This document shows, in pieces, positions 14,143 to 38,528 of a stretch of DNA of 64,000 nucleotides. Below the pieces are notes generated by a model that had not been told where the DNA came from, searched no databases, and saw only the letters and a list, made by a program, of their open reading frames with translations. Location: positions 2,232,001 through 2,296,000 of the forward strand of contig CAJSYZ010000004.1 in the NCBI GenBank assembly GCA_910574455.1, given 5' to 3'. How positions within the stretch are numbered: position 1 is the first letter of the stretch; the number at the start of each line of letters is the position of its first letter. Position numbers and translations under genes: made by a program. This DNA is from Trichaptum fuscoviolaceum (Eukaryota; Basidiomycota; Agaricomycetes; Hymenochaetales; Trichaptaceae).

Positions 14143-14144
14143 TT

Positions 14145-14155
14145 AGGTCAAAAGT
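14145..14155 (+). other. self-primer binding site of gypsy A
   Basis: aggtcaaaagt, two bases after the LTR end, is the exact complement of 13837-13847 in the presumed 5' end of the transcript. No tRNA-type TGG start is present at the LTR boundary. This fits the Tf1/sushi lineage, which primes reverse transcription from its own RNA. Confidence 0.7.
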
Positions 14156-14231
14156 CCTGGCTCACCGCCGCTCGGACTCGACACCCTCACGCTCTTTACT
14201 TCTACCCCCGCACCCGTACCGCCGACCCGCG

Positions 14232-18400: not shown

Positions 18401-18556
18401 GCGTGGAAGGAGCAGGAAGGCCGTAAATGCGGCAGGTGTGTAACTCTTAATTTTGCATTTAGATGGAGCTAACCTTTTGCTTGACTCATAGTTGCACCGT
18501 GAACCTCACCCTCATCTTCATTGCAAGAACGTCAACGATACCACAGGACGCTATTC

Positions 18557-19200
18557 ATGGCTATCTTTCCTCCGCTTTCCCAAATCCAAGCACAGCAGCA
18601 GCAGCAAATCCAAGCAAGCTCAACTTCCTCGTGGCTGACGCCGCTGCAAACACAACAATCGCAACAATCGCTGCGTCGGCAGCGACAATCGCCTTCGTCT
18701 CCAGAATTCTCATTCCAAAAACCTGGTCAACAGTCGTACCAGGGCGCTCGCGATCACGAGCAAGAGTTGAACGGCTCGGATTCTGAACAGGAAGCTCCCC
18801 GGCCTAATCCCCATCCACAGCTTGTACATTCTCACAGCTGCTGCTCGGCATCTGCTCTTCAGCAACGGCAACAGCATGCGCAAGCACTCAGCTTTGTGCG
18901 TCCGATACCGGATGCCGTCTGAGTTCCTGGTTCGAACTACTGTCTTCGTGACAGTGAGCGCTGGACGATGACGACGATCTGGCTGCCGATATTGAGTGGG
19001 TGCTGATAGGTTACAATGAGCTTTGAGGGGCTCGCTGATGCGGGAGCGCCGTTTCTTTTGAACGGCGCAAGCGCAGACAGAAGGTATGCTCTTTCCTTCG
19101 AATCCATTCTACCAAATGCGCCCCAACTCAGGGGAATAACCTTCGCAACTGCGCGCGATCTTTGTGATCAGTGCTTTGCGAAGGTTAATCTTGCTATGTT
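18557..19200 (+). pseudogene. Gln-rich gene remnant inside hAT-like copy 1
   Basis: From ATG 18557 a frame encodes a Gln/Ser-rich protein (runs of QQQQ, then QTQQSQQSLRRQRQS) followed by an acidic DSEQE part. Further on, an acidic DDDDLAADIE-type segment (about 18965-18995), a splice donor after 19083, and a terminal block reading LPNAPQLRGITFATARDL are found. All three parts recur in copy 2 in the same order (51926-52640), so one split gene was carried by the ancestor. No known domain is recognised; a regulatory-type protein is possible. Frames are broken in both copies. Confidence 0.5.
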
Positions 19201-20529
19201 TGTCTTCTCTTTTGTTGTTTTTTAATTATGTATATTACTACTCTAATACAATTACAAGTATATAAACATTTGAAATACGCAAAAAATGTGTGCAAGGAGT
19301 GAATCAAATAATCTTTAGACGATGTCGAAGATGCCCTTCGACACATCTGTGCCCTCAAAAGTGTGTCCGGCGATTCCCGGACCATTTGTCCGAGGCATCG
19401 CCGGACATACTCTTTGCTTTGTTTTAATTTAACAAAAGTAAAGAACATCAGGCACATATGCTATAGTGTATGGAGCACCTCCATAGGTAATTATCATATT
19501 TATTTTAATAGCATTCATGCGCTCTGTTGTTGAGAGAGTAGCATAACAATGCTAAAAGGTGCTGTTCAAACAGTATTTATTCATTTCTACTTTTTTGAGT
19601 GGCTCTGAGACTTTCAATTTCTGTCAAATAGTAGTCCTAAGCAATTGAAAGAAGTTTAAAAAAGAATTTCGGTGATAGGTGTAGTGGAAGTGGTTGAACT
19701 CGAAAGTGGTGCTTTGAATGCATCACTTCGAGTGAAACTTGTACACATGTGTTCGACTTTCGGATACATTCATGCACTTTCCAAGTGTTTTTCTTATAAC
19801 TTTCAATCTAATGCCTGATTATTCTTCATTACTATGTCTATAACAGCTATGTAGAATACATGTAATTTTTAATCATCGTTAATACAGTGTAAATAGCTTC
19901 GAATGTTGAATTTTGAGCCAAAAGTGCACAAAATGGTCATTTTTAGGGATTGTTTGATTTCTATAGCTTCTTACGAGGCTCTGTTAACTCTACCAATTTT
20001 TTAACAGCTTACGTATAGTGCATATAGCACGACTGTAATTTACTAAAGCTATACAAGCAATGTAAGGTATAATAGAAATCAACAAATTGGAGCATATATG
20101 CATGAATCATGCATTTCTATTGCAGTCTTTAATTTTCACCCTTTGTAATTCACTCTTAAACCTCTGTTTTTTTTGTATATATACATTAGCACCGATTACA
20201 CCCATCACGACAGTGTGCCTAAAGCTATTCTTTCTACATAAAATTCAATGTGTATGTTATTGGTATGTTTGAAGGAGAAAAAAAGTTTGAGAGATACCAT
20301 ATATGGTGATTTCACGCGATTTTCAGGGTCGTGGCGCAATCTGCACGCACGACCGTCGTCGTCGTCGTCGTCGTCGTCGTCTTTCTTTCTTTCTGCTCTG
20401 TTCTTCATGCGCAGTCTTTGGACGACGGGCAAGAAGGCGTTTGCTTCGCGCAAATGCCGTCTTGCTTCTGCTTCCGCAGCCTCTCGCCTCTCGGGCGCGA
20501 GCTGTCAGTTGCGCTCGCAAGCGCAGCTT

Positions 20530-20680
20530 TAAAGACTTCGAATCTTACTCCTACGACCTCTGCAACTCCTTGAACGACGAGAAGCTACTCTTTCAAGCCC
20601 GATGACAAGGCCAAGCTAGAGCCTTTCGCTCGCAAGACCATTCCATGGCTTGATGCCTCGCAGGAAGCATAGAAGATAGG
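20530..20680 (+). pseudogene. captured Hsp70 C-terminal fragment, copy 1
   Basis: The frame reads FESYSYDLCNSLNDEKL and, after a shift, KPDDKAKLEPFARKTIPWLDASQEA before a stop. This matches the lid region of cytosolic Hsp70 (family pattern LESYAYNLRNSL ... [10 protein letters not shown]). A conserved intron-like stretch follows (donor gtacgtc near 20964, acceptor tttgcag near 21034), shared with copy 2, so the capture was from genomic DNA. A (cgt)n run at about 20353-20380 lies upstream. Confidence 0.75.
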
Positions 20681-23057
20681 AAGAAGCAGCCGGAGCTCGA
20701 GAGCGACGCGAGCCCCATCAGTCGTCTGCTTCATCGACGCTATGATCGCGCGCAGTTAAGTGCGGGGTGTTTAAGAGGAGAAGGTGCTCGAGAGCGTCGC
20801 GAACCCATGGTCTACTTCGGTGCACTTTGGCAGTACTCGCGACATCCGCTTCAGGGCATACAGTTGGTGGAGGAATGTTGTTTAGAGGGTGTGGTGAAAT
20901 GATTGAGGTGCATTCGAGTGAACCAGGAGCGGCGCTGGTGTGCTCGCTGGGTGCAGCAAACCAAGTACGTCTTCATGTTTTACTCTGTACGATTTTACAA
21001 AAATCTTGACTGACAGTGGCTTGCTTTCTTTGCAGCTGCACCATTGAGCCATGCGTGATAAACGCTTGCGAGCTCTCACCTCCCTTTCCGTGCTCACTCA
21101 CACCGCATCGTCTGTTCTCACCTTTATTGCTGCACGCGAACGATTCGACCTGCCGACCGCCGCCCACATCTTGAGCTTTGCTCATCTCCTCGAGCCCGTA
21201 GCCGCACCCACGCGATGATAAGGTGCGTTTTTCCCGCCGTGCGTGCGCGAAAGGCTTTTTTTAAATAAAATTATGCCTGCAACGAGTCGAGGCGACGCGC
21301 CACTCACGGCCTGCCGACTGCCGCCCACACCTGCTGCTCAGCTTATCTCCTTCCCAAGGCCGTGGTCGCACCCGCGCGACGGCGGGGTGTGCTTTTCCTG
21401 CCGCGCGCGCGCAACCCGTAGCGCGCGGTCGATTTTTTAGCTATTTTAATAATGATGTCATTATTGTAATTAATTTTAGTGATCAAAAGCTTGGCCTGGA
21501 CCATGTTCCAGGCTTTGCAATATGAATTTATTTTATTTTCAAATGAATTGAAGGTCCTGCCGTGTTGCCGGGCAAGGCCCTGACAAGGCTGCATCGGCAT
21601 GCATGGGTAGGGCAGAGCTGAAAGGGAGAGCGAGCTGCCGAAAGCCTGCCGAAGTTACCGCGATAACTATACAATCGGGTTGCGATAATTACCGCGATTC
21701 TATAAGATTATTAGCTGGTACTGGTGCACGACAGTCTCCCTGCCGGACATCCTGGACGTTGGAAAACGTTTGAGATGGTAAGCCGCAACTACTGGTGGCC
21801 CGGGATGTCTAACTTCGTAGAACGATACGTTTCGGGATGCGATACCTGCGCACGCACGAAGAACCGATCCCAACGCCCGGTAGGACTCCTGCAACCGAAC
21901 GAAATCCCGCAGGGCCCCTGGCAGGCGATTTCGTGCGATTTCATCACCCAGCTCCCCCGATCTGAGGATTACGACGCAATTTTCGTGGTGGTCGACCGTC
22001 TCACCAAGCAAGCGCATTTTATCCCGACCACGTCTGACATTGATGCACCGGAAACTGCGGAACTATTCCTGCAGCACGTCTGGAAGCTGCACGGAACCCC
22101 CCGCCAGATCATATCCGACCGAGGACCACAGTTTGTCGCGCAGTTCATGAAAGCCCTTTTTTCCCGACTCGGTATCAAGGGTACCACGTCGACTGCGTAT
22201 CACCCGCAGACGGATGGGCAAACCGAAAGGGTAAACCAAGAGCTGGAACAATATTTACGGGCTTTCATAGATACACGACAAGAAAACTGGGCCGGATTAC
22301 TCCCAATGGCAGAATTCGCGCACAACACGAAAGCGCACGCGGCAACACGACAATCCCCGTTCGCGCTTGTCTACGGCTACAATCCCGAATTCACGATTGC
22401 CCCGAGCGACGGCCTGTCCACGGTCCCCGCCGCGGACGCACGACTACAGGAGCTTCAGCAGGCACAGGAAGAGGCAAGAGCGGCTTTGGAGGTTGCGGCA
22501 GAGCGCATGAAGCAGCACTACGATCAGGCCAGGAACGAGGCCCCGCAGTACGCAGTCGGGGATAAAGTATGGCTTGAGGCGACGAACGTTCGGCGACCAG
22601 GAGCGCGCAAATTATTACCGAAACGACTAGGGCCGTATAAAGTGAAGGCAAAGCTAAGTGACCTCACCTACGAACTCGAACTCCCCGCGTCGCTGAAGAT
22701 TCATCCCGTATTTCACGTATCACTGCTCTCGCCATACCACGAAGACGACATTCCCGGTCGAACGCAACCCCCGCCGCCCCCAGTCGAAGTAGAAGGAGAT
22801 CTGGAGTACGAGGTGGAAGAGGTTCTGGATGCTAGACGGTTTAGACGGAGATTTGAATATTTGGTACGATGGAAGGGATATTCGAGCGCGGAAGATACAT
22901 GGATTCCCGCAAAGGATATGGGTAATGCAAAGGCTAAAATTCGCAGTTTCTATCGAAAACACCCGGACGCCCCTCGAGAAGTCAACGCTATCGAGCTCTG
23001 TGACCTGAGCAAGATTCAAGCTTGGCGCCCCGGAGTTGCGCCTTTGGAGGGGGGTAA

Positions 23058-23698
23058 TGTCGAGATCCCGGGCTCCTTTTCTCATTTCCCGCACTTTCCC
23101 GCCAAGGATCCCGACATGAGCAGACAAACCCGCGGGGAGAATCCCGCCATTGGATTCCCCGCGCGAAACCTCATTCCCGAATCGCACGATCCCATGCTCA
23201 CGTGACTTATCCCGCACCACCGTCCCGGCAACCATGCACGCATACACACATTCATTTACGACGACCCGCCACGGCACACGTACATTCACTTATCAACATA
23301 CGCTCATTAATCCGTTAGTACCTCAAGGTGACGACCTGCAACAGTCTGGCATACCTAGTCTGGCTAGTCGCGGCCCCGGACCGGACGCTGACGTCCACGG
23401 ACAGGCCGTAGCCATCTGGAGAGACGGGATAGACATGCCTAGCAGTGCGGTCGTAGCATGTATCGTTTGTAGTAGATAGGTGCGCATTGCGCAAGGACAC
23501 TTAGCGTAGATTAACTATACAGTCTTTACGAAGTAGATAAATAGCTGTAGGCATCGTAAGGAGCACCTCACTTTTGACCTCTTGTGGAGTGCTTCCTTAG
23601 GTGCGATCTCTCTCTTTTCTCCTGTGTAGTTAGTTGCGCAATACTTACTTGTGGAGTGCTTCCTTAGGGATCCGCTTACTCGACGTTCAAAGCAGTGA
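23058..23698 (+). repeat. 3' LTR of gypsy A, first part (interrupted)
   Basis: Same sequence as 13325-13978 apart from a few substitutions. Broken after agtga (23694-23698) by gypsy B; the last 177 bp are at 38213-38389. Preceded by the polypurine tract ggaggggggtaa. Confidence 0.93.
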
Positions 23699-24165
23699 TG
23701 TTACGTTTTCTTACTATGTCAGCGGTCCCCATTACTCCGAACCCTTCGCCCTATTTGTTTCTATTCTTGTTCTGCTCAGTCATCCTCCGATGTAACCCTC
23801 AACCCTCAGCCAATCCCGATGTTACACATGTACCCTTTGCCCTAACCCTTTGCCCATCGCTCTCACACTATTATTAGTAGCCTATCGTCTACTCTCTTAT
23901 TGTTCTCTTCTTACTCATCTTCCGATGTACCCTTGCTCCGCAGCTACAGTATATAAACCCCTGTACTTAGCATGATCGAACTCTAAGTTCGATCTCCTTT
24001 GTCAAACCCCCCGTCTCTAGTCTCTGCTATACATCTGTTTCTCTCTACTCTACATCATAGGCCTTTGTCCATACAACACTTAGTGTCGAGCCCTAGCTCC
24101 GCTATCACTGAGCAACTTAACGTTGCGTTCCCCAACTATACGAGACCGTAAGTTGAGACGTAACA
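23699..24165 (+). repeat. 5' LTR of gypsy B (467 bp)
   Basis: Starts TGTTACG and ends CGTAACA. A TATA box (tatataaa) lies at about 23950. Some 25-30 bases later is a perfect hairpin, gatcgaact-cta-agttcgatc (23974-23994). Its right arm with neighbours (aagttcgatct, 23985-23995) is complementary to agatcgaactt (24169-24179) just after the LTR, which is the self-priming layout. Confidence 0.93.
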
Positions 24166-24168
24166 ATT

Positions 24169-24179
24169 AGATCGAACTT
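24169..24179 (+). other. self-primer binding site of gypsy B
   Basis: agatcgaactt, three bases after the LTR end, is complementary over 11 bases to 23985-23995 close behind the TATA box. No TGG-type tRNA primer site is present at the LTR edge. Confidence 0.65.
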
Positions 24180-24761
24180 CTCTACCGTCGAAGACATCCG
24201 TCTTTACGACTAAGGTGTTGAGCCATAGCTCCACTTACTACTAACCAGTTGTAAACCCATCTAGTCCAGAAGAACATCCGCTCGAGGTAATCCCTTCAGT
24301 GTAGCAAGGTGCTCATCGATTGCAAGAGGGAGGCCAAGGAAAACTTCGAGAGTCGCGATCCGAAGATTAAGAAAACCGCTCCAGCTCATTGGTTGATTAA
24401 ACCCCGGACAGTAGCGTTACAAAGGAACCAACTTCTGTCATACCAAACGGGACCGTAGCTGTGCACACAGGAAGAGGACTCAGTACCTGCAAAGAAGGCA
24501 TAAAGCTGCTAGCCTAGTCTTTGGGACGCCTATTGGACAACGAGCATAACTCGCAGACGTGCCGCTTGGTAATAGCGAAGGGAGACCGATCCAGAAATCG
24601 AAGGGAGACCGATCCAGAAATCGAAGAACAGTTCATCTGTTAACATTGAACAAAGCATCACAAACACTGACCCACCGTCGATCATCTCATAACGTTATCA
24701 CTTGACGACCCTCAAGACTAAACAAAGGTCAAACAGAAAACCACTTCACTTTACGTCATAA

Positions 24762-25220
24762 CATCTATCCATCACGGCACCCTCTATCCCACAAAACGCT
24801 TTGCTCCTTACCCACACCGACACCAACCACCTCGACAACGCAGGAAGACACATATACCAAGTCCAATACTCTGTAGCCAACTGTTATCAATTCGACACAT
24901 ACAGTTTCACCAAGTACTGTGACGATACAGTTTGGTCCATCACAAAAACTGCTAGTCTAATTGTCCAACCCGACTCTATCTTCTTCATCTACCACACCAA
25001 CCCCAACGCATTCTTCTATCTAGAAAAGTTTCTTCCCGATCGAATCCGACTAGTCCATATCTGTGGAGACGATTGTCGACTTTTACGCATACACTACACA
25101 CTACCACAATCGTGGCGGACACCCTATCACTTCCAGCCCTTGACGATCCCATCTACTCAACCAGAGACCTCATCCGAAACCGATTCCTCGCCTTTGCCGA
25201 AGAGTTCGACGACATCCTAA
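24762..25220 (+). other. ATG-free open frame 1 in the gypsy B leader (152 codons)
   Basis: Open between stops at 24759-24761 and 25218-25220. The translation is protein-like, with many Tyr, His, Asp and Cys (for example FFYLEKFLPDRIRLVHICGDDC). No ATG and no known domain. It overlaps the next open frame by about 265 bases in another frame. Whether it is translated is unknown. Confidence 0.35.
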
Positions 25221-25249
25221 ACCAAATCAGAACTATACTCGACGACCGG

Positions 25250-26160
25250 TGTAACACCTGGACTGCGTCCAGTGTTCGTACGACGCCCGCCGGACACAGC
25301 AGAGGCATCCGGACGGAATCTGGGTGCATACACTGGACACCGGACAAGCAGAAACACTCGAAGCCAAATAGCGAAGGGAAAACTGTACCTGAGCACAAGC
25401 AATAGAGAATACAAGGCACAGAGCTCACCGGCGATCACACAACGGACAATGCGATGAGTGGACGAGCAAACGAGCTTGCGGGATATGCGTCCGGCCGGAC
25501 ACTTAGAGTGTGGCGACGTGCGCGAGTGGCGTGGGAAACGGGTTGCCAATTGAGGGACGGGAACAAAGACAACGGTTCCGGGGTAGTTTGCGTGACCGGA
25601 GTAGCCGGTTCACACGCGGTATTCACTTGTGTTAGTCGCGTCATGTAGACCGTGTGAAAATTAACCTACCTTTCCCCAACCACCACCTGCGAGAGCGAGA
25701 GCGAGGACGAGTCTGAAGTCTGCGCTGTTGCGCGTTCTGTAGGACTTGTTTCTTCTGGTTTCTAGTCTGTTTCTTGTCCTCGGGCTTCGACTACGGCGGC
25801 GCGCAAGACTTTTACGGACGTGCAAGAGTCCTTTTTGTTTCTTGTCTTCGGACTTCTCGCGAGCGACGATTGCGGGCGCACGCAGAAGACATACTTACGG
25901 ACGGTTGACTGGAGTCCGTGCATAGGCGCGTGCTACTGGTCAGCTTAGTTCTTTCGACGGAACGACGAGTACGGGCCTCGACGGCCATCGATTCTCTCGA
26001 GCGACGCGCGCGAAGACTCTGTCTTACGGACGGTTGGGCCGTTGGTGGATTTCATTAGTTTTCCTTCGTTGTTTCTCCTCTTCTTTCTGTCCCTCTTTTA
26101 TCATTCTTTTATTGGGTCATTTAGCTACACTCCACCCCCTGAGTACCTACCTAGTTTACA
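25250..26160 (+). repeat. 5' LTR of element C (911 bp)
   Basis: TG...CA ends, matched almost base for base by 29143-30052; one extra g near 25690 accounts for the length difference. Confidence 0.92.
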
Positions 26161-26357
26161 TCTGGTGACCACCGCAGGGCAGGGAAAGTTTGTGTAGCCC
26201 CCAAAAATATTTTATTTGTCGCCCTTTTTTTTGGGGCCTAGTAGTACAAATTTTAGTTATAAAGAAAGATAATTAGTAGCATTTTTGGCCAGCCAAAGAA
26301 CGGCAGAAAGAGGTTCGAATTTTTGTCTGAAGGACTGAAAAAGAGAGAAAAAAAAAA

Positions 26358-28379
26358 ATGGATTGGATGAATGCAGGACAACTTCGAGACTATTTTGTCA
26401 AGAAGTCTGTGGAGGAGTTGCGAGAGGAAGCAATGAGCACAAGGAATGATGTTGATGGGTTTGTGTTCGAGTTTGGGATGGATGCCCCTATGGTCTTGGA
26501 TTTAGGGGGGAATAGGGGACGGAAAAGGATCGAGGAAATGGGGAAGGAAGAGCTGGTGTACGAAGTGGTTGTTTCTTTGATGCGCATACGGGTGTGCTCA
26601 AAGAAGATACGAGAGGGGGATCCAGAATATCTGGCGTGGGCTCAGTATAAGCGGAAGGAAGTCCGGAATCCGAGTGTCTCTCCTCAAGAAGCGCAAGTAC
26701 CGGAGACGGCGCAGGCGGTCGTACGGGAGACGACTGCGAAGAAACCGGCAGACTCTCCTCAAGAAGCGCATGCACCGGTGATGTCGCAGCTGGTACGGGA
26801 GACACCTGCGAAACCAGTAGTCTCTCCTCAAGAAGCGCAAGTACCGGAGACGGCGCAGGCGGTCGTACGGGAAGCGACTGCAAAGAGACCGGCGGACTCT
26901 CTTCAAGAAGCGCAAGCACTGGTGATGGCGCTGCTGGTCGTACGGGAGATGACTGCGCGGAAACTGGCAGACTCTCTTCAAGAAGCGCAGGCACCGGTGA
27001 TGGCGCAGTTGGCCGTACGGGAGACGTCTGCAAAGAGACAGGTAGACCCTCCTCAAGAAGCGCAAGCACCAATGACGGCGCAGCCAATTGTACGGGAGAT
27101 ACCTGCGCGGAAACTGGGAGACTCTCCTCGAGAAGCGCAAGCACCCGTAACGGCGCTGCCAATCGTACGGGGGACATCTGCGAAGAGACCGGTAGACGCT
27201 CCTCAAGAAGCGCAAGTACCGGGGATGGCGCAGCCAGTCATACCACCTGCCAAGAAAACGGCAGACTCTCCTCGAGAAGCGCAAGCACCAGTGACGGCGC
27301 AGCCAAGCATGCGGGGGACATCTGCGAGGCATCCGGTAGACCCTCCTCAAGAAGCGCAAGGACTGAGGACGGCAGCGGCGCATAGAGCAGGCACGAGTCG
27401 CGTTGGACTCGGGTGCTTCTACTGCTGGCGGCAGGGCCACCGGAAGCAGGACTGCTGGGAGCTGCGCGCGGACATCGAGCGCGGGTTGTGCAAGCTGGGT
27501 GCGGGGTACCGGGTGGTCCGGCTGGACGGTTCGGAACTACCATACATGTGGGGCAAGAGTCTGTGCGAGCGCGCGAGATCGCGAGGCAGACGCTTTGCGC
27601 ATGGTGAACATCATCGAGCTGAACAGTTGCATGGGGCTGAGATAGTGTCCGTGTGGACTACTGTAGGCCGACAGAGCGCACCAGAAGCAAAGTCGAGCAG
27701 AGCACCGGTTCAGAGCAATACGGACAGGCTAGCAGCGAAAGGGGCCAAGGCATGCGAGAAGGAAATCGGTGTTCGAGTTCGCGCACCCGTCTTGACGGCC
27801 AAAGGACATGTGGACGAAGCAGAGACACGTTCGACAGGCGCGCCGGCCAATGTCCAGAGCATTACGGGCGAGAAAGAGGAAGAGAAAGGAGATTCCGAGC
27901 TGCAAGCGCTGCGCCTTCGCGTACGGACGCTGGAAGAGACCGTCGACCAGCTGCGAAGAGAGCTAGCAGAGCAGAATCGACGAGGAGCCGGAGTGGTCAG
28001 TGTACCCAAGCAGGAAGAGGACAATGAAGAGTCTGGGTCTGTTACGGCGACCGTAACCTCGAGCAGCGAGGGTAAGGCGCGCATTGGTACGGAGGTTGAA
28101 CGAGAAGCTGAGAAGAGAAGGCGATCGACGACCAATGTCAACCGAACCAAGAGCGCACAAGCATACGGGCGAACAGTTTCAGCAGCAGCAACAGTCCTGG
28201 CAGTCGTGCAAGAAGCTGAGAAGAGAAGGCAGCCGGATACAAAGAGTGTGCGAGACGCGAGCGCACAAGCATACGGACGACCAGACTCAGCAACAGCAAC
28301 AGACAAGGGTCTCGGGGAACAGAAGCACGGCTGGCGACCATCGTTTTTCTTTGAGAACAAGGGCACGGCGGCGTCTTAA
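26358..28379 (+). CDS. gag-like protein of element C (673 aa)
   Basis: ATG 26358 follows an A-rich run; the frame is open to TAA 28377-28379. Residues 1-100 form a charged helical N-domain. Residues about 105-345 are ten or so imperfect tandem repeats of roughly 25 residues with the core SPQEAQ-x-P ... VRET-x-AK-x-x-x-D. Then comes one CCHC zinc knuckle (CFYCWRQGHRKQDC), as in retroviral nucleocapsid. The last third has a leucine-zipper-like coiled coil (ALRLRVRTLEETVDQLRREL) and two copies of an EAEKRR ... SAQAYGR block. It is probably the particle-forming protein of a non-autonomous element. The open frame in a non-autonomous copy suggests the protein is still needed. Confidence 0.8.
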   Translation: MDWMNAGQLRDYFVKKSVEELREEAMSTRNDVDGFVFEFGMDAPMVLDLGGNRGRKRIEEMGKEELVYEVVVSLMRIRVCSKKIREGDPEYLAWAQYKRKEVRNPSVSPQEAQVPETAQAVVRETTAKKPADSPQEAHAPVMSQLVRETPAKPVVSPQEAQVPETAQAVVREATAKRPADSLQEAQALVMALLVVREMTARKLADSLQEAQAPVMAQLAVRETSAKRQVDPPQEAQAPMTAQPIVREIPARKLGDSPREAQAPVTALPIVRGTSAKRPVDAPQEAQVPGMAQPVIPPAKKTADSPREAQAPVTAQPSMRGTSARHPVDPPQEAQGLRTAAAHRAGTSRVGLGCFYCWRQGHRKQDCWELRADIERGLCKLGAGYRVVRLDGSELPYMWGKSLCERARSRGRRFAHGEHHRAEQLHGAEIVSVWTTVGRQSAPEAKSSRAPVQSNTDRLAAKGAKACEKEIGVRVRAPVLTAKGHVDEAETRSTGAPANVQSITGEKEEEKGDSELQALRLRVRTLEETVDQLRRELAEQNRRGAGVVSVPKQEEDNEESGSVTATVTSSSEGKARIGTEVEREAEKRRRSTTNVNRTKSAQAYGRTVSAAATVLAVVQEAEKRRQPDTKSVRDASAQAYGRPDSATATDKGLGEQKHGWRPSFFFENKGTAAS

Positions 28380-28572
28380 GGGGGCGGAAATTTTTATCTT
28401 TATTTCTATAATTTTAATTTCAATCTTCAACTTTCACGGCGTCTCAAGCTAGTACACGCGTTTCACTGGAATTACGGATGGAAGCAATTAATTTCTCTCT
28501 TTTTTTTACTCCTTCTACCTGCATATTATTATTAGTATCATATTCACATTCATTGACAAGTTTCAAGTTTCT

Positions 28573-28573
<1 letters not shown>

Positions 28574-28607
<34 letters not shown>

Positions 28608-28640
28608 ATTAGGATAACAGACAGACAGACAGACAGACAG
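28574..28640 (+). repeat. poly-A run and (caga)n microsatellite
   Basis: About 30 A in a row from 28576, followed shortly by a (caga)n run near 28620 and (ggaaga)-type repeats at 28681-28703. They lie in the 3' non-coding part of element C. Confidence 0.85.
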
Positions 28641-29142
28641 AGACGAGTACAGTAGACAGTAGATAGTAGCATGTAATACGGAGAGGAAGAGGAAGAGGAA
28701 GACATAGGGAGATCAGCGAGGGCGAGACAACGGGCAAGCGATGGCACGGACGAGCGGCAACTACGGCGGCAACTGCGCAGGCACGAGACCAAATACGGCG
28801 CGCGATCGAAGATGGCACGAAGAAAGGAGGAGGGACACGGGGCTAGAGGGAATGGAAGAGGAGCTAGGAGACAGAGACGGAAGGGGGAGACTCACGGACG
28901 ACCATCGAAAAGACCGAAGTCCGGCCCAAAATTTTCGCGATTTTCAATCACAAGCAAACACCCACAAGACCCAGTCAAGGACCTCCACTACGCATAGCAT
29001 GCACGACGGGCAGCTAGTCAGATCAAGTACGCGCTCGAGAACCAAGTGAAACAGAGCATCTACCCCACGAAACCACTTCGAAAGCAAGCCAGACAGGCGA
29101 GGCAGAGTGACCGGGAGGTCACTATTCAAAGTGGGGAGGAGG

Positions 29143-30052
29143 TGTAACACCTGGACTGCGTCCAGTGTTCGTACGACGCCCGCCGGACACAGCAGAGGCA
29201 TCCGGACGGAATCTGGGTGCATACACTGGACACCGGACAAGCAGAAACACTCGAAGCCAAATAGCGAAGGGAAAACTGTACCTGAGCACAAGCAATAGAG
29301 AATACAAGGCACAGAGCTCACCGGCGATCACACAACGGACAATGCGATGAGTGGACGAGCAAACGAGCTTGCGGGATATGCGTCCGGCCGGACACTTAGA
29401 GTGTGGCGACGTGCGCGAGTGGCGTGGGAAACGGGTTGCCAATTGAGGGACGGGAACAAAGACAACGGTTCCGGGGTAGTTTGCGTGACCGGAGTAGCCG
29501 GTTCACACGCGGTATTCACTTGTGTTAGTCGCGTCATGTAGACCGTGTGAAAATTAACCTACCTTTCCCCAACCACCACCTCGAGAGCGAGAGCGAGGAC
29601 GAGTCTGAAGTCTGCGCTGTTGCGCGTTCTGTAGGACTTGTTTCTTCTGGTTTCTAGTCTGTTTCTTGTCCTCGGGCTTCGACTACGGCGGCGCGCAAGA
29701 CTTTTACGGACGTGCAAGAGTCCTTTTTGTTTCTTGTCTTCGGACTTCTCGCGAGCGACGATTGCGGGCGCACGCAGAAGACATACTTACGGACGGTTGA
29801 CTGGAGTCCGTGCATAGGCGCGTGCTACTGGTCAGCTTAGTTCTTTCGACGGAACGACGAGTACGGGCCTCGACGGCCATCGATTCTCTCGAGCGACGCG
29901 CGCGAAGACTCTGTCTTACGGACGGTTGGGCCGTTGGTGGATTTCATTAGTTTTCCTTCGTTGTTTCTCCTCTTCTTTCTGTCCCTCTTTTATCATTCTT
30001 TTATTGGGTCATTTAGCTACACTCCACCCCCTGAGTACCTACCTAGTTTACA
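29143..30052 (+). repeat. 3' LTR of element C (910 bp)
   Basis: Direct copy of 25250-26160. Preceded by the polypurine tract agtggggaggagg and followed by the target copy ccgg. Confidence 0.92.
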
Positions 30053-30421
30053 CCGGTATTACAATTACACCCAAACAGTTGGATACCTGCAGTACTCACG
30101 CGACAACCACCAACCTTGGATCTTCAAATACGGACTCCTCTGGAACCATACCCGATTATTCATCCCTCGAGAAACTCACCTACGCCGATTCTTTATAAAC
30201 TACGTCCACTTTGACAACCACGGAGAACAACTTCATCGCACTGAAGCTGAAACTGCTCGCTTTGTAAACCGACACTTCTGTTGGAATAGTATCAGCGAAG
30301 ACGTCAACCACTACATCTATCAGTGTAGTTGTCAACACCACCAACCCACTCCGCAAAACATAGTTCATAACTATCTTGCACCACCGATTGACCCCCCGGA
30401 AGATTCACCCCACATTGCTAG

Positions 30422-31057
30422 TGTTACGGACTACACCCTTACAAACTACGATTCAGACAGTTACGGATATCAATCCGGAACCGATTAATCACCACGGCGA
30501 ACAAAGGCAAACAGACGGCTCGAAACACAGCCTCATCTACTACAACAGGCAAAACTAACAAAGAAACCACTTCGAAAACCACTGAAGAACCAATACCTAC
30601 ACAGACTACTGTTCCTCAGTATCCAGACGCTCCACCACCACACAATCGACTCTTCTTTGACACCGAAAAGAACTTCTTCTACTATAGAATTGGTAACAAA
30701 ACTTATCGATCGTGGTCATACAATCAACTACTACAACGGTGGACCCCAATCGAAGCCAACTCTGCTGAAGAAGCTCGACAAAACTTCATCACTCATACCC
30801 CCAACTGGGAAGACCTTGCTCGTCGAAGTCTAGCAGGAGAGTTCAAACACATTCAACCCCCACTACCACCGTTCCCAACCACTCTTATCTTCAACGAAGA
30901 AACACAATACTTCCATCTTCCCGACGCCAACGGAGAACCTACCGAAACCCCTTGGATCTACAACCCAACTGCTGATTCTTGGGTAGTAGCTCATACACTC
31001 GGCCCAGAACTACGAGAAATATACGAAGGTCACACTCCAAATTGGAAAGAGGCTTAG
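30422..31057 (+). other. ATG-free open frame 3 in the gypsy B leader (211 codons)
   Basis: Open between TAG 30419-30421 and TAG 31055-31057. Contains a protein-like stretch with many aromatic residues (FFDTEKNFFYYRIGNKTYRSW) and two NW-containing repeats (HTPNWEDL and HTPNWKEA). No Met codon. It overlaps the end of frame 2 by 67 bases and the open part of the gag frame by 68 bases. Function unknown. Confidence 0.4.
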
Positions 31058-31358
31058 AGAAGAATACTACCGCCGACACCCCGACCTACTACCACAACCA
31101 CCACAAGAACCCCAACCAACTTCCACTTCCGACCCTCAACCCAGCAACTCCCATCGATCTCGTTCAAACTCACCCACTCACGGATCTCTTGATCAAACCC
31201 TCTTCAGACGATCCTCCAGACGATCCTCTCAATCAGGCAGCTCCATTGCTCCAGAAACTCCTACTCCCTCACGTCAAGCATCCATACTTCCACCTATCCC
31301 ACCGAAACCATATCTCTCTTACATCCGCCCTCACATCGAACCTCTATCTATTAGTACT

Positions 31359-32740
31359 ATGGCTACCCAAACTGTCACGGAAAATACCCGCTCAATGTTC
31401 CGACCCCCACTTGGAGAAGAAAGTATCAGTACCTTTTTCCACTTAAGACATCTCCAAGGTCGAGGCAGAGGAGGTAGAGGAGGCAGAGGAGGCCGACAAA
31501 ATCCTGCATGGAGAGGATGGGGATTTGGTGAACCACCCGCAGGAGATGAAGGAGGAGGAGGAGGAGAAGGACCACCCGGAGGAAACAACAACGGAGGAGG
31601 AGGAGACGATGAAGGAGGAGGAGGAGGAGGGCGGAGGAGCTGGAGGTGGAGGAGCAGCAGACAATAACAATCAAGGAGATGGACCCGCACACGATCGGCC
31701 CATAACCATGGCTAAAATCCAACCTTTCGACGGAACCCAAGAAGATGCTGATCGCTTTTTACTCCAAGTCCAAATCCATCTACGAGCCAACCGACACATC
31801 TATGACACAGATGAGCTATGCATCGAATTTGTGCTTGCCCATTGCAGCCTTCGCGGATCCCGACCCTTCGCAATGCAATATATGGCCAGCGGACGTTTTG
31901 AAACCGACACATTTGAAGAATTCCTTGCAGAATTCCATCGCACTTTCATCACATCCGAACTCACAATCAAGGCTACCATGGAACTCGCCAAGCTCAAACA
32001 GCGAGGATCTATTGAAGACTACATTCTCAAATTCAAAACACTCATCATGCAGGCTCGTATCACAGAATACCTCTCCCAACGCAATGCATTCTGGATGGGA
32101 CTCAATGACAACCTTCGAATGAAACTACTTGCATGTAGTCCACAACCTACCAACATGGAAGATTGGTTTTCGCTTGCCACTCGACTGGACACCAATTACA
32201 AGATAGCTCGTTCAATGGAATCCCAACCCCACCAATCCTATTCCGGAGAAAACCGCTTCAAACGACGACCTATGCGACAATACAATCGTCAGATTCGAGC
32301 CATCTCAAACGACGCAAATGACACAAATGAAACATTGCCTTCCAATGACAACGATGATATAGAAGAATTGGTCGACCTAGCCATCTACAGCTTCTTTATA
32401 TCACGACTTTCGACTGAAGAATTCCAACGTCATATGAAGGAAAACCTTTGCTTCAATTGTTCATCAACCCGGACATCGCACTGCCAAGTGTCCCAAACCT
32501 CATCCCAAACGTACCTCAAAGACTCGATGGCCCAACTCACGAACACCAAGGTCCAAAAATATGCGCCAATTGACTTCAGCTGATGATCAAAATGAATACT
32601 CGGAACCCGAGAACGAAGACCAAGATCAAGGCGAACTCTCAGCCGAAGATCGCGCCGCACAGATTCAACAACTCCTTATTGGCCTTGATGATGACGCAGT
32701 CAACCAGGTCTTCGATCGAGTTGAAGAAGGAAATTTTTGA
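31359..32740 (+). pseudogene. gag of gypsy B, two frame changes
   Basis: ATG 31359 is the first ATG of the transcript. The N-terminal part is Gly/Arg-rich (GRGRGGRGGRGG) with a Gly-Asp-Glu run encoded by a gga microsatellite. Within that run (31550-31645) the frame shifts, and the capsid region follows in the next frame (IQPFDGTQEDADRFLLQVQ, FLAEFHRTFI). A second shift cuts the zinc knuckle near 32460: CFNC is in one frame and HQPGHRTAKC in another. The last frame ends at TGA 32738-32740, overlapping the pol frame by a few bases in the -1 register usual for gypsy elements. A nucleocapsid/capsid precursor, probably not functional in this copy. Confidence 0.82.
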
Positions 32741-35700
32741 ACAACGAAGAGCTCCCGCAGCCCTCTCTCTCGTTGAACATCAGGCTGCTCATCAATTCAA
32801 TTAACGACAATCATGCCTTACGAATCCCAATCACGTTCCTATATAACCAGAAAACCCACAAAGCCACCGCCTTACTCGACACCGGAGCAGAAGGTCTATT
32901 CATTGACAAAACACTTGTAGAAAATCTCCAGATCAAAACTATCAAGCTGCGACAATCACTTCGACCACGCAATGTTGACGGAACATTCAACAATGCCGGA
33001 CACATCACATCTTATGCTCCCCTTCGTGTCAAACTCGGAAATGCCCACTATGCTATGCGATTCTATGTTACCACCCTTGGAAAAGAGAACTTCATTTTCG
33101 GACTACCATGGTTCAAGAAATACCAACCCAAAATCGACTGGGAAACTGGATCAATACAGCTCAATCGCGTTAATATCTCAACACAACTTGCGCAACAAGC
33201 TCGAAAAGGACTCCAACCCGCTAAACCACTTACTGCCTTGGTACCCCATCAATACCACCAATTCCTATCCCTTTTTGACGAAGAAAAAGCACATCGCTTT
33301 CCTCCAAGTCGCCCATATGACCATGCAATTGATCTCAAACCCGACTTCATTCCTAAACGACATTCACCTTATCCACTCTCACTTCCGCAACAAGCTGCTC
33401 TCGATGCCTTCATCGATGAGAACCTCAAGAATGGATATATCAGACCTTCGAAGTCACCTATGGCATCCCCTCTCTTTTTCGTTGACAAGAAAGACGGTAC
33501 CTTACGACCCGTTCAAGATTACCGTTACCTCAACAATGGAACCATCAAGAATGCGTACCCATTACCACTTGTCCAGGATCTATTAGACAAGTTACATGGA
33601 TCTCACTACTTCATCGCCCTAGACATCCGATGGGGATACAACAACATCCGCATCAAGGATGGAGATCAATGGAAAGCCGCATTTACCACTCAACGAGGAC
33701 TTTTCGAACCAACAGTTATGTTTTTCGGCCTATGCAACTCACCTGCTACCTTTCAACACTTTATGAATGATATTCTTGGCGAAGAAATCCTTCTAAACCA
33801 TCTCTTGGTTTACATGGACGACATCCTCATACATGCCCCAACCTTACCGGAACTCATATCTTGAGCACGACGTGCCTTCACTATCCTTGAAAAGAACGAC
33901 CTCTACTTCAAGCCCACCAAATGCTTCTTTCATACGCAGAAACTACCCTATCTTGGACTCATTATTACACCTAATCACATCCAAACCGACCCAACAAAAA
34001 TCGAAGGAATCACTAAATGGCCCACTCCGACTAACGTCAAAGATATCCGTTCATTCACTGGATTCACCAACTTCTACCGCCGTTTTATTCCACACTACGC
34101 CGAAATCACCAAACCCTTGGACAACCTAAAACGCAAAGATCAACCTTTCAAATGGACTGAAGTAGAACAAAAATCATTCGATGATCTCAAGGCCGCGTTC
34201 ACTCAACATCCGTTACTTCTCATGCCCAACCCGCACAATCCCTTCTTCCTTGAAACTGATGCTTCCAAAGTTGCAACCGGAGCAGTCCTTCGTCAACATG
34301 ATGACAACGGTGTTCTCAAGCCAATCGGTTATATTTCGCAATCACTAAACTCTGCTGAACGGAACTACGAGATCTATGATCGCGAACTATTGGCAATTAT
34401 CCGTGCCCTCATCACTTGGAAACACTATCTCCTTGGATCCCCACACCCTGTCACACTTTGGTGTGATCATCGCAACCTTACCTACTGGCGAGAGGCCCGA
34501 CGACTCTCACCCCGTCAAGCACGATGGCATCTGTTGCTATCACAATTCGACCTTCATATCACACATGTCCCCGGCAAACAAATGATTCAATCCGATCTTC
34601 TATCCCGCCGGGCGGACCATGTTAAACAGGGGGAGAATCTCAACGAATCATCGATTATGCTTCCGAAGGACCTATTCATTTCCACTCTTCAGGAACAGAA
34701 GGATCAAGAAAATTCTGAAGACGAAGAAGAAGAAGACTACGAATCCGATGACGACCTCCCAGACACAGATAGCCTCACAAAATCCATCAAAGAATCGATG
34801 AAGAAAGATGAATTCCTCACAAACACCATTGCCCAGCTAAAGAAGAAACTACCACCTGCCCGAACCGCCCTCAAAGACTGGTTTTTCGATGATGACGGCA
34901 TCCTTTACTTCAAAAATCGCATCTATATCCCGGACAACCTCGAATTAAAGCGCACTATTCTCCGACTTCACCATGATATACCAGTTCGAGCGCACCCTGG
35001 CATATTCAACACCCTGGAACAGGTCCGAAGGACGTATTACTGGCCCAGGATGCAGAAGTTTGTGTCCGATTATGTCCATGGATGCGCACTATGTCAACAA
35101 ATGAAAGTCAATCACCATCCAACCGCTCCACCACTAATGCCTATCGCCGCCGACAAACACTCGTTTCCATTCTCCCACGTCAATATGGACTTCATCACCG
35201 ACTTACCAATGTCACATGGCTATGACACACTTCTATTAGTCATTGATCACGATTGCTCCAAGGCCATTGTCCTCATTCCATGCGAAAAGACAGTAGACGC
35301 AATCGAAACGGCACAACTATACTTCGACAATGTATATCGACGATTTGGACTTCCGATACGCATTATATCCGACAGAGGACCCCAATTTGCTTCTAAAGCA
35401 TTCCAAGAACTCTGCAAGATCATAGGAATCAAGTCATCGATGTCCACCGCTTACCACCCTCAAACCGATGGACAAGCCGAACGGACCAATCAAGAGATTG
35501 AAGTATATCTCCGGATCTATTGTACTGCGGAACCTGAGAACTGGTCTAGACACATTCCCAACATTGAATTCGCCCATAACAACCGTGCCCACGCTGTCAC
35601 CAAGAGAACCCCTTTCTCGCTTCTCATGGGATACGACCCCATTCCACTACCCCTGAAATATCCGAAATCAAATGTCCCATCCGTATCACAACGACTTGCC

Positions 35701-36222
35701 AACCTCACAGTACATCGATCAGAAGCCTTAGCAGCTCATTCAGTTGCTGCTATGGTAATGAAAGAACGCACCTTCCGAAACTTCAAACCATTCAACAAAG
35801 GAGACAAAGTTTGGCTAGACTCAAAGAACCTTCGAATTCCCGGTCTATCGCAAAAATTCAAGGAAAAACGCGATGGTCCCTTCAAGATCAAGAAAGTCTT
35901 ATCTCCACTCGTCTATGAATTGGATCTCTCACGGACTAAATGGAAGATACACCCAGTATTCCACGCCGCGCTTCTCGTGAGATACACTGAGACGGAAGCA
36001 TATGGACCACCCCACAGTAACCCCCCACCTGATCTAATCGAAGGACAAGAACAATTCGAAGTAGAAGCCATCCGAGCCCACCATGGGAATGGCACCAGGC
36101 GACAATATCTTATAAAATGGAAAGGTTACCCCACTTCTGGAAACTCATGGGAACCCGAGTCACATCTTCGGAACGCACAGACCATCCTCAAAGCCTATAA
36201 AAGACTCCATCATCTCACTTGA
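32737..36222 (+). pseudogene. pol of gypsy B, one in-frame TGA
   Basis: A single frame from about 32740 to TGA 36220-36222, interrupted only by TGA 33862-33864. Order: protease (LLDTGAEGLFI), RT (YIRPSKSPMASPLFFVDKKDG, FFGLCNSPATFQHFMNDI, LVYMDDILIH), RNase H (LETDASKVATGAVL, YEIYDRELLAII), the HHCC zinc region (CALCQQMK), integrase core (MDFITDLP, ISDRGPQFAS, STAYHPQTDGQAERTNQ), GPF module, and chromodomain (EVEAIRAHH ... YLIKWKGY). The stop sits where an Arg codon is expected (tcttgagca), consistent with a CGA to TGA change. The pol stop touches the next start (TGAATG). Otherwise the polyprotein is complete. Confidence 0.92.
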
Positions 36223-36711
36223 ATGTCCCCATCCAAAAAACTCGTTCACTTCTCATATCCCCACTCATCTAACATCATAAACGACTATACGCTCTCCCCA
36301 TCGAACAAACAGCCACCAACACCTGAACCCCATACTGTCGCATTACCGACTACCTCGATTCCAACTCGCCCCCATTACCTGGACGCTGTCCGACCTGTAT
36401 ACTCCGGAGCTTGGTCCAAAGACCACTACGACCCAGACTGGGAGTACAAGTACTTCAAACCCCCCACCGGACTTGGACTCCACATCCCAACAATCTCGGT
36501 ATTTCTCATCCACACCTTCTTTAACAACCCTGATTACGCCCACCGACTCATTGACTATTTCAACAAATCTGCTCGTGTTCAACCCCCACTCACAATCACT
36601 CGACCCATTGTCCGACATCGTCATCACTTCAGCCACTTTGAACCTCGCCGCTCTGACCCCTATTGCACCTGCAGTTGTTGTCACTACGACTGTCCGACTC
36701 ATTCCCTCTAA
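36223..36711 (+). CDS. accessory ORF c of gypsy B, CxCxCC tail (162 aa)
   Basis: The ATG directly follows the pol stop (TGAATG), in the same frame. The product is about 162 residues, with an aromatic-rich middle (GAWSKDHYDPDWEYKYF), a TFFNNPDYA segment, an RHRHHF stretch and the end DPYCTCSCCHYDCPTH. The last two match ORF c of element D (1179-1730). The terminal cysteine-histidine group looks like a small metal-binding tail. No known family. The frame then stops at TAA 36709-36711 and the next ORF starts after three more bases, again in the same frame. Confidence 0.78.
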   Translation: MSPSKKLVHFSYPHSSNIINDYTLSPSNKQPPTPEPHTVALPTTSIPTRPHYLDAVRPVYSGAWSKDHYDPDWEYKYFKPPTGLGLHIPTISVFLIHTFFNNPDYAHRLIDYFNKSARVQPPLTITRPIVRHRHHFSHFEPRRSDPYCTCSCCHYDCPTHSL

Positions 36712-36714
36712 GTC

Positions 36715-37707
36715 ATGCCACCTGCCCGTTCCCAACGCAACCCATCCCGTCACACCCCCTTATTTCGTTCATACACATCATCTCTCCAACCACCAGCCTT
36801 ACGCCTCGACACCCACAACCCCTTGCAATCTCGCCAGATCCTTGAATTATTCTCAACTCGCACCTTCCACCAACGCCTAAGTCAATCAACATATGATAAC
36901 ACTCCTCTTCTTGCCAACTGGACCCAATGTTATGATATTGTTACCCGAAACCAGGAGATTCTCGACCCTACCATTGCCATCATCGAAGGATCTCTCCATC
37001 TCTTGCGACGGGCTCAAGAGTCATTCCAAGACATGCGACGATTTGCCCTTACGGAACTCCTTGAAACAGCGCCTCAAGAGTTATTTGCCCCATTGGTCAT
37101 TGACCTCACCACGGAGGATGACATCATCGACCTCACTAAAGACCTTGCTGACCAAGTACCTCGCCCACCCCTTCACTCCGTCGGCATTCAAGTCCCAGAA
37201 CGCAAAGAACTCATCAATCGCCTGTCCGAACCCATTCGTCTACAATCGCCAATACAGTTACAAGAAGACCAAGAGTATCGTGTCAACACAGCCCCACCCT
37301 CACCCACATACAGCCCGAAAGTTGACAACAATCCTTTTACGTCTATGTCCTTGGACCCCAAGGAATGCACACAACACTCCGCTGTCGACCACCACTACAA
37401 CCTGGCCGCGTCCACCTGCGAATTCTATACATGTTCATACTGCAACATACGTGCACCTGGACACACCATCATTGGATGCCCCAAGTATACATGCCCCTCA
37501 TGTGGACAACACGATGGTCATGACGATGAATGCGCATCTAACCGAATTGCTCAACAACGCGACGAAGAGAAAACCCACCTGCAAACAACTAAAGCACCTG
37601 TTGCTAACCTGGATACCCTATTGGCGTTAACTTCGCTTATATGGCATGTTTTTCCTTATTGTCTATTGGACTTAATTTGTCCCTATAACGGCCATTTTCT
37701 TTACTGA
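36715..37707 (+). CDS. accessory ORF d of gypsy B (330 aa, zinc cluster, SIM-like motif)
   Basis: ATG 36715 comes three bases after the stop of ORF c, in the same frame. The N-terminus is basic and Pro/Ser-rich, followed by a helical block, then VIDLTTEDDIIDLTKD (about residues 128-143). That is two hydrophobic-Asp-Leu cores in acidic context, very like tandem SUMO-interacting motifs. A PPSPTYSP linker leads to a Cys/His cluster (CSYCNIRAPGHTIIGCPKYTCPSCGQHDGHDDEC) that could bind two metals. The tail is hydrophobic. It corresponds in position and N-terminal layout to ORF d of element D, which lacks the zinc part. The two hairpins of this element lie in its last codons. Confidence 0.72.
   Translation: MPPARSQRNPSRHTPLFRSYTSSLQPPALRLDTHNPLQSRQILELFSTRTFHQRLSQSTYDNTPLLANWTQCYDIVTRNQEILDPTIAIIEGSLHLLRRAQESFQDMRRFALTELLETAPQELFAPLVIDLTTEDDIIDLTKDLADQVPRPPLHSVGIQVPERKELINRLSEPIRLQSPIQLQEDQEYRVNTAPPSPTYSPKVDNNPFTSMSLDPKECTQHSAVDHHYNLAASTCEFYTCSYCNIRAPGHTIIGCPKYTCPSCGQHDGHDDECASNRIAQQRDEEKTHLQTTKAPVANLDTLLALTSLIWHVFPYCLLDLICPYNGHFLY
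37619..37687 (+). promoter_or_regulatory. pair of conserved small RNA hairpins, gypsy B
   Basis: 37619-37641 (stem ggcg/cgct, one G-U pair) and 37664-37687 (stem ggac/gtcc, loop ttaattt) follow the same TATT-stem-loop-stem-TATA plan as the pair in element D at 2648-2730. The stems differ between copies but stay paired. They overlap the end of ORF d. Confidence 0.6.
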
Positions 37708-37740
37708 TTTCCACTGCGTTTCAATTTAAGAACGGGGTAA

Positions 37741-38207
37741 TGTTACGTTTTCTTACTATGTCAGCGGTCCCCATTACTCCGAACCCTTCGCCCTATTTGT
37801 TTCTATTCTTGTTCTGCTCAGTCATCCTCCGATGTAACCCTCAACCCTCAGCCAATCCCGATGTTACACATGTACCCTTTGCCCTAACCCTTTGCCCATC
37901 GCTCTCACACTATTATTAGTAGCCTATCGTCTACTCTCTTATTGTTCTCTTCTTACTCATCTTCCGATGTACCCTTGCTCCGCAGCTACAGTATATAAAC
38001 CCCTGTACTTAGCATGATCGAACTCTAAGTTCGATCTCCTTTGTCAAACCCCCCGTCTCTAGTCTCTGCTATACATCTGTTTCTCTCTACTCTACATCAT
38101 AGGCCTTTGTCCATACAACACTTAGTGTCGAGCCCTAGCTCCGCTATCACTGAGCAACTTAACGTTGCGTTCCCCAACTATACGAGACCGTAAGTTGAGA
38201 CGTAACA
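37741..38207 (+). repeat. 3' LTR of gypsy B (467 bp)
   Basis: Reads the same as 23699-24165 throughout. Followed by the target copy agtga and then the last 177 bp of the gypsy A LTR. Confidence 0.94.
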
Positions 38208-38212
38208 AGTGA

Positions 38213-38389
38213 AGAGTCCTAGCTGGCCTTGAGAATCCCGCGACGCGCCTGGATAGAATCCCGCGCGTTTCCCGCCTGAATTCCCACGCTCGTTCCCAGT
38301 CGCGAATCCAGATTCCCGAACGCGGGTCCTTGTCGCGAATTCCAGTTTCCCGAAACTGTTTCCCGCTACAATTCCCGACGGTCGTAACA
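38213..38389 (+). repeat. 3' LTR of gypsy A, last part
   Basis: Continues the LTR broken at 23698; matches 13966-14142 with one visible change. Ends CGTAACA and is followed by the target copy gtata. Confidence 0.93.
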
Positions 38390-38528
38390 GTATAAGGTCG
38401 ACGAACACAGAACAGGAGACAAACATACAAAGACACAACTTGAATACTAGTGGTATGCACTGGTATGAGGTAATGCTACGAAAAGAAAACAGTTAGAAAT
38501 AGTTTGAGTACAAGCCTGAGTCCTCAGG

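Follow-up and report, generated by a model that had tools for sequence, protein, structure and literature searches.

An AUG-free leader, probably tricistronic and read by leaky scanning, in a group of Ty3 chromoviruses of Trichaptum fuscoviolaceum

The question raised by this locus is why the long leader of a long terminal repeat (LTR) retrotransposon contains no ATG. The locus, element B, lies in a window of 64,000 nt from Trichaptum fuscoviolaceum (contig CAJSYZ010000004.1, positions 2,232,001 to 2,296,000 of the forward strand); coordinates are those of the window, and the features of element B and of insertion C are on the plus strand. Element B features a 5' LTR of 467 bp (23699..24165, TGTTAC...GTAACA) and an identical 3' LTR (37741-38207), and a target duplication, AGTGA, is found at its ends. 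Because the LTRs are identical and the duplication is present, element B is a young insertion. The gag-pol region (31359..37707), determined from Pfam profiles and open frames, has the order Retrotrans_gag, protease, reverse transcriptase (RT), RNase H, integrase H2C2, rve, SH3_Tf2-1, and chromodomain, and the RVT_1, RT_RNaseH, Integrase_H2C2, rve, SH3_Tf2-1, and Chromo matches score above the curated Pfam cut-offs. The RT, RNase H, integrase, and C-terminal chromodomain in Ty3 order place element B among the Ty3/gypsy chromoviruses. Its leader consists of two parts, 24166..25249 and 30053..31358, separated by a nested LTR element, insertion C (25250..30052), which is specific to the window copy and stands outside the mechanism discussed here. 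Comparison with other copies and families points to an answer, which is that the 2.5-2.9 kb leader of the Ty3 chromovirus group formed by B and two related families, F2 and F4, is very probably a tricistronic coding region read by leaky scanning.

The absence of ATG was first noted in a sequence-only reading of the window, and it is borne out in both parts of the leader, with 0 ATG where 9.1 are expected in the first part and 0 where 8.6 are expected in the second. The chance expectation of 28-37 given in that reading was too high, the dinucleotide-corrected figure for both parts together being 17.7. The dinucleotide shuffles (1,000 per part) had a minimum of 2 ATG in the first part and 1 in the second. 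When trinucleotides of the B leader are ranked by deviation score, ATG shows the strongest depletion (0 vs 17.9 expected) and TTG the strongest enrichment (33 vs 15.6 expected). CAT, the antisense equivalent of ATG, occurs a normal 27 and 21 times in the two parts, and the ATG density in gag and pol of element B is 25 and 19 per kb. A general depletion of near-cognate codons was considered and dropped, since in single leaders of B, F2, and F4 the totals of CTG, GTG, and ACG differ little from expectation; none of the 24 CTG codons in the window leader of B has a strong context. A search of 20000-40000 against Rfam gave no match at the gathering score.

The B family comprises 53 loci, of which 12 have a leader that is broken or incomplete in the fetched stretch (L012, L040, L044, L049, L050, L051, L055, and L057-L061). 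The remaining 41 copies, which do not include the window copy, form the set used below. The lack of ATG extends to these copies: 30 of the 41 leaders contain none, and the 41 together contain 17. Normal ATG numbers in the other copies, which would have counted against the sequence-only reading, were not observed. In an initial count, which covered 36 of 39 fetched copies, 26 of the 36 complete leaders were without ATG. Among 133 leader variants present in at least three copies, no allele creates an ATG (4.3 expected). ATGs arise in single copies but are not seen to spread; ATG-creating alleles at expectation in one or two copies and absent from three or more are the pattern expected if copies that gain an AUG fail to multiply. 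The gag ATG itself (31359..31361, context agtactATGgct) is kept in 36/36 copies of the initial set and in 40/41 by exact flank.

Related families were found with an RT search in which 150 of 576 candidates were scored, and for this reason further families may exist. The RT-piece identity to B is 63% for F2, 64% for F3, 60% for F4, and 56% for F5, with four copies each of F2 and F4 and one copy each of F3 and F5. The leader of F2 (L062) contains 0 ATG in 2,768 nt (22.2 expected) and that of F4 (L064) 0 in 2,885 nt (20.2 expected), with minima of 10 and 12 ATG in 500 shuffles each; CAT occurs 48 and 46 times in these leaders. Two of the three further copies of F2 and two of the three of F4 are also ATG-free, and the exceptions, L067 and L069, have one and two ATGs; the extra F2 stretches begin 52-66 nt before the leader, which leaves the LTR part outside that count. 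The ATG-free run directly before gag is 2,769 nt in F2, 2,886 nt in F4, 848 nt in F3 (10.0 ATG expected), and 507 nt in F5 (3.6 expected). The long AUG-free leader of the B/F2/F4 type was not found in the single F3 and F5 leaders. In F3 (L063) the ATG-free stretch of 847-848 nt before gag, at 2317-3163, is without long frames. Because 10.0 ATGs are expected there and none is present, F3 also avoids ATG over a shorter stretch, and the accessory open reading frames (ORFs) may be younger than the avoidance of AUG before gag. Over the RT and RNase H (about 400 residues), F2 and F4 share 80% identity. In the first half of this region B is no closer to F2 (63%) than to F3 (64%); in the second half F2 and F4 are 64-65% identical to B, F5 50%, and F3 41%. 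The AUG-free leader seems to follow a group of B, F2, and F4, as judged by pairwise identities only.

The limits of the AUG-free stretch correspond to those of the putative scanning path to gag. An 11-mer in the 5' LTR of B, AAGTTCGATCT (23985..23995), is complementary to a putative self-priming primer-binding site (PBS), AGATCGAACTT (24169..24179). Tf1 and Tj1 are self-primed, with a PBS complementary to the 5' end of the mRNA, as described in an excerpt of PMC4600332. Because the arrangement in B, F2, and F4 matches this, the RNA 5' end is placed by inference at the 11-mer. The 11-nt complement is found at 1082 and 1266 of L062 in F2 and at 966 and 1146 of L064 in F4, so that in all three families the 5' end of the predicted transcript is complementary to the PBS, as in the Tf1/sushi self-primed elements. 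The last ATG in the LTR of B is at 23972, 13 nt before 23985, and the earlier claim that the LTR part of the transcript is ATG-free also holds. The 11-mer is exact in 39 of the 41 copies and the PBS in 36; in all 39 the last ATG lies 13 nt upstream of the 11-mer, 28 of them are AUG-free from the inferred transcript start to gag, and their inferred leader RNA is 2,534-2,569 nt long. In F2 and F4 the last LTR ATG lies 9 nt before the inferred start, and the distance from that start to gag is 2,760 nt in F2 and 2,877 nt in F4. From the inferred transcript start the AUG-free stretch reaches to the gag AUG, which is the first ATG downstream of that start when insertion C is left aside.

The leader features three frames. 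ORF a (24774..25220) has 148 codons, no Met, and a proposed ACG start in tccatcACGgca. ORF b has a proposed GTG start in acaatcGTGgcg; its first part (25112..25249) is cut by insertion C, and its second part (30057..30488), which resumes at 30057 and ends with the stop TAA at 30486-30488, carries an integrase H2C2-like domain. ORF c (30494..31057) is proposed to start at an ACG in atcaccACGgcg, 5 nt beyond the stop of ORF b, and is broken in the window copy. The stop-bounded frames of 152 and 211 codons described earlier are exact in the window, and the middle frame, b, described there with 241 codons, has 213-252 codons in 31 of 36 other copies. The shift from frame c to the gag frame near 31040 in the sequence-only reading is a defect of the window copy. 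In intact copies ORF c is in frame with gag, with 288 codons to the gag ATG; 26 of the 41 copies have a frame c that continues without a break, and in the same frame, to the gag ATG, and 15 do not. ORF a is full length in 35 of the 41 copies and ORF b in 34. In the leader of copy L043 the frames lie at 608-1051 (a), 946-1512 (b), and from 1521 (c).

Selection on these frames was tested with L043 as the reference, alleles present in 2-38 of the other 40 copies, and 3,000 permutations; alleles in 39 or 40 other copies, which are private to L043, were left out. In the region covered by a only, 21 of 24 alleles are synonymous in frame a (9.4 expected) and 2 of 24 in frame b. In the region covered by b only, 21 of 28 are synonymous in frame b (9.8 expected) and 5 of 28 in frame a. 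In the c region, 42 of 81 are synonymous in frame c (24.3 expected), and the remaining two frames have no excess. Each of these three counts was reached by 0 of 3,000 permutations. The first 600 nt of the leader have no excess (11/36 synonymous, 11.3 expected). Single-copy alleles have a synonymous excess in b (14/20, 6.4 expected) and in c (45/89, 24.7 expected). The synonymous counts in the four copies of F2 (a 17/37, b 12/16, c 17/24) and the four of F4 (a 17/26, b 12/17, c 33/59) are each above expectation, with P from 0.024 down to below 1 in 1,500, and the shifted frames show no excess. Judged by these counts, the leader of B, F2, and F4 is coding and under frame-specific purifying selection.

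The proposed start codons of a, b, and c in B are all near-cognates in a strong context. ORF b starts at ggcaacCTGgca in F2 and atcaatCTGgcg in F4, and ORF c at gacactCTGgca in F2 and gttaaaCTGgcg in F4. The b and c starts share the context A-N-N-(ACG/GUG/CUG)-GC. In one leader per family, the pattern A..(CTG/GTG/ACG)GC occurs 3 times in B, 2 times in F2, and 2 times in F4, and all 7 occurrences are ORF starts. Since about 12% of leader positions have at least 140 open codons ahead, the 4/4 agreement between motif and start in F2 and F4 would arise by chance about 2 times in 10,000. The start of ORF a in F2 and F4 is probably a conserved cccaacCTGa, and the ORF a proteins of the two families align from the CTG residue of this sequence. 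When scored by exact flank, 40 (a), 38 (b), and 39 (c) of the 41 B copies retain the start codons. The exceptions are an ATG at a in 1 copy, an ACA at c in 1 copy, and unmatched flanks in 3 copies at b and 1 at c. The starts of a, b, and c are kept in 4, 3, and 4 of the 4 F2 copies and in 4, 4, and 4 of the 4 F4 copies.

The ORF b proteins of B, F2, and F4 match one another in a nine-protein blastp comparison (E values of 1.6e-8, 1.4e-7, and 8e-12). P0006 (186 aa), one of the predicted proteins in the public set, is 72% identical to ORF b, begins at the ORF b start codon, terminates at the ORF b stop, and lacks internal Met; it is known as a protein only, and its first codon may be ATG or GTG. 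Another predicted protein, P0007, is a shorter, partly frame-shifted relative of ORF b, and P0005 corresponds to the c-to-gag frame in a relative with 50% identity over 46% of the query. ORF b appears from its sequence to be a free-standing relative of the integrase N-terminal zinc (H2C2) domain, for which the curated Pfam Integrase_H2C2 score threshold is 25.5. The cysteine pair of the integrase N-terminal zinc site has C-x2-C spacing; in ORF b the corresponding pair is C-x-C, not C-x2-C, in 4/4 aligned sequences (B, P0006, F2, and F4). No convincing Pfam family was found for ORF a. Searches with P0006 against viral contigs and with a pol piece against plasmids gave no match, and P0006 had one weak match among PDB sequences (E 0.84) that was taken as chance.

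The AUG absence across copies and families, the frame-specific purifying selection, the near-cognate codons conserved in a shared context, and the likeness of ORF b to an integrase domain are observed, and leaky scanning is the most likely account of the AUG absence and its limits, the start context, the short spacings, and the selection. As read from these sequences, the use of the near-cognate codons, the transcript start, and the relative yields would fit together as follows. Ribosomes would load at the cap and scan the leader. In B, a minority would initiate at each of three codons, the ACG of ORF a, the GUG of ORF b, and the ACG of ORF c; in F2 and F4 the codon would be CUG at b and c and probably at a too. 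Initiation at ORF c would give an N-terminally extended Gag. Because near-cognate codons are weak, most ribosomes would pass the three starts and reach the gag AUG, the first AUG of the transcript. AUG would have been removed from all three frames because any AUG in between would capture scanning ribosomes. The ORF b product may be a low-dose partner or regulator of integrase. Two proposals of the sequence-only reading are supported in combination, namely that uninterrupted scanning was selected for and that proteins are made from near-cognate starts.

Several results weigh against leaky scanning from these starts. The motif was set after the B starts were known, which leaves the 4 cases in F2 and F4 as the independent ones. 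The ORF a CUG of F2 and F4 has an A at -3 and no G at +4, which is weaker evidence for a start. F2 has a strong-context CTG 26 nt into the leader, followed by 9 open codons, and downstream of the b start B has further ACG and GTG codons in a strong context. ATG-creating alleles are not depleted among those present in 1 copy (8/188, 7.4 expected) or in 2 copies (4/47, 1.8 expected). All three ORFs are intact in only 18 of the 41 B copies. Single-copy alleles in a have no synonymous excess (8/23, 6.5 expected), and the short a/b overlap has 5 shared alleles; against expectations of 2.4 in a and 1.2 in b, 1 of them is synonymous in a and 3 are in b. A protein search with ORF a returned 6 candidates, none at E 0.01, and no homologue outside this genome. 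By blastp, ORFs a and c of B do not significantly match their counterparts in F2 or F4, and only b is therefore recognisably the same protein between B and F2/F4. Additionally, the leader RNA is not less folded than shuffles. An unstructured leader as an aid to scanning was dropped as an idea, the mean folding energy being close to that of shuffles and of gag-pol.

Other explanations have been weighed against leaky scanning. The AUG absence could be a mutational or compositional accident of a non-functional leader, and the G-poor sequence, which lowers the ATG expectation, and the close relationship of copies within one family fit such an accident. However, zero ATG was never reached in the shuffles of any of the three families (minima of 2 and 1 in B, 10 and 12 in F2/F4), CAT is not depleted, gag and pol have 25 and 19 ATG per kb, and the frames are under selection, which leaves this idea with almost no probability. 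Relay frameshifting, also raised by the sequence-only reading, would begin at a single start in ORF a and shift into b, c, and gag to make one long polyprotein. The open frames overlap or abut in a row and both steps in B could be -1, but the a-to-b relation is 2 mod 3 in B and 1 in F2 and F4, and the b-to-c relation is 2 in B and F2 and 0 in F4, where the two share a frame with a stop between them. Relay frameshifting fails because the frame relations differ between the families. It would also call for no loss of AUG and for no start context at either b or c, and it is rejected as extremely unlikely.

Splicing could take the leader out of the gag mRNA, or an internal promoter or internal ribosome entry could bypass it, with a-c made from other RNAs. 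B has a 5' splice-site-like hexamer, GTAAGT, at 24148-24153, but the nearest equivalent place in F2 and F4 reads GTGAAC. A skipped leader would not require the absence of ATG in all three frames over the whole inferred transcript, the start of which lies downstream of the last LTR ATG by 13 nt in B and by 9 nt in F2 and F4, and such bypassing is judged very unlikely. Termination-reinitiation, in which some ribosomes ending ORF b would restart at ORF c besides leaky scanning, is the least improbable of these alternatives and is still unlikely. The c start follows the b stop after 5 nt in both B and F2 and after 24 nt in F4, which would suit it, but ribosomes usually do not reinitiate after long ORFs, according to an excerpt of PMC5902531, and the a and b starts and the AUG-free stretch upstream of them would be left unexplained. 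Leaky scanning through three near-cognate starts is the preferred reading.

Other features were observed in the window. Insertion C is flanked by a 4-bp repeat, CCGG (25246-25249 and 30053-30056), and its near-identical terminal repeats are about 0.9 kb long. Its insertion site is uninterrupted, with an overlap of a few bp, in 38 of 39 other fetched B copies; L044 is without the upstream part. A frame of 682 codons in insertion C (26331-28379) features seven repeats, mostly at 75 nt spacing, and has no Pfam match. No RT was seen in this frame, and insertion C may for this reason be non-autonomous. A frame of 331 codons without a stop (36712-37707) lies after the chromodomain end of B and overlaps other open frames; it has no Pfam match. 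Element A (13324-23694 and 38208-38392) is another chromodomain Ty3 element, and B seems to have inserted into its 3' LTR and split it. The first ATG of element A lies within about 90 nt after its LTR, and thus there is no long AUG-free leader in it. An inverted repeat at 5288-5807 has arms of 189 nt that are 95% complementary and a spacer of 142 nt.

A similar arrangement is described for rice tungro bacilliform virus (RTBV), which has an AUU start and AUG-free ORFs I and II with about 895-900 nt scanned; ORF I is entered by shunting and ORF II starts at AUG (excerpts of PMC5902531 and PMC3542737). The B group resembles RTBV and the badnaviruses (Caulimoviridae), as portrayed in these excerpts, in having consecutive upstream ORFs without internal AUG, a non-AUG first start (RTBV), and the main polyprotein last. 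B, F2, and F4 all lack internal AUG across the upstream ORFs and have conserved non-AUG starts, that of ORF a in F2 and F4 with the A at -3 only. Unlike in RTBV, the proposed scanned path of 2.5-2.9 kb is about three times longer, and three proposed non-AUG upstream starts precede the gag of an LTR retrotransposon. The Caulimoviridae are not known to have an LTR or an integrase; element B has both and falls outside that family. Tf1 is not known to have an AUG-free multi-ORF leader. Element B is like the self-primed chromoviruses of the Tf1/Tf2/Tj1 type in its Ty3 pol, chromodomain, Tf2-1-like SH3, and 11-nt LTR-PBS complement, the last of which is as described for Tj1 and Tf1 in an excerpt of PMC4600332. 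The F3 and F5 leaders examined resemble Tf1 in being without an AUG-free multi-ORF leader.

The glyco-Gag of murine leukaemia virus is a CUG-started N-terminal extension of Gag. ORF c can be likened to it as an in-frame, near-cognate-started Gag extension, a likeness of arrangement only, and unlike glyco-Gag it is preceded by two more independent ORFs. Plant Ogre elements have an ORF1 upstream of gag. Bdelloid rotifer LTR retrotransposons have a captured extra ORF, ORF3 (PMC5408684, in excerpt). The B group is like both in carrying accessory genes beyond gag-pol, and unlike both in that its ORFs lie in the leader without AUG starts and that one of them resembles an integrase N-terminal domain. 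A 2010 survey of >150 fungal Gypsy families reported most of them with one or two ORFs, and in its Figure 3 legend some elements are given dUTPase domains and a further ORF whose function is unknown (PMC2864245, in excerpt); section 5 of that survey makes no mention of AUG-free leaders or non-AUG starts. No such element was found described among titles and the beginnings of abstracts in a literature that was open-access and mostly without subscription papers.

If the near-cognate codons are used, this group has a leaky-scanning path far longer than that of RTBV in which every upstream gene is non-AUG, and it would provide a natural test of ribosome scanning distance and of the ordering of weak starts for protein ratios. 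A wider proposal is plausible and is put forward tentatively. The lineage may make at least four primary products from one RNA via three near-cognate starts over 2.5-2.9 kb, with start strength setting their doses, an accessory proteome invisible to ATG-based annotation, and a free integrase N-terminal domain working in trans on the intasome so as to adjust integration or direct its targets. Use of these codons would mean that accessory genes of LTR retrotransposons can escape annotation that requires an ATG, and it would put a name to a free integrase-domain protein whose role in integration is open to testing.

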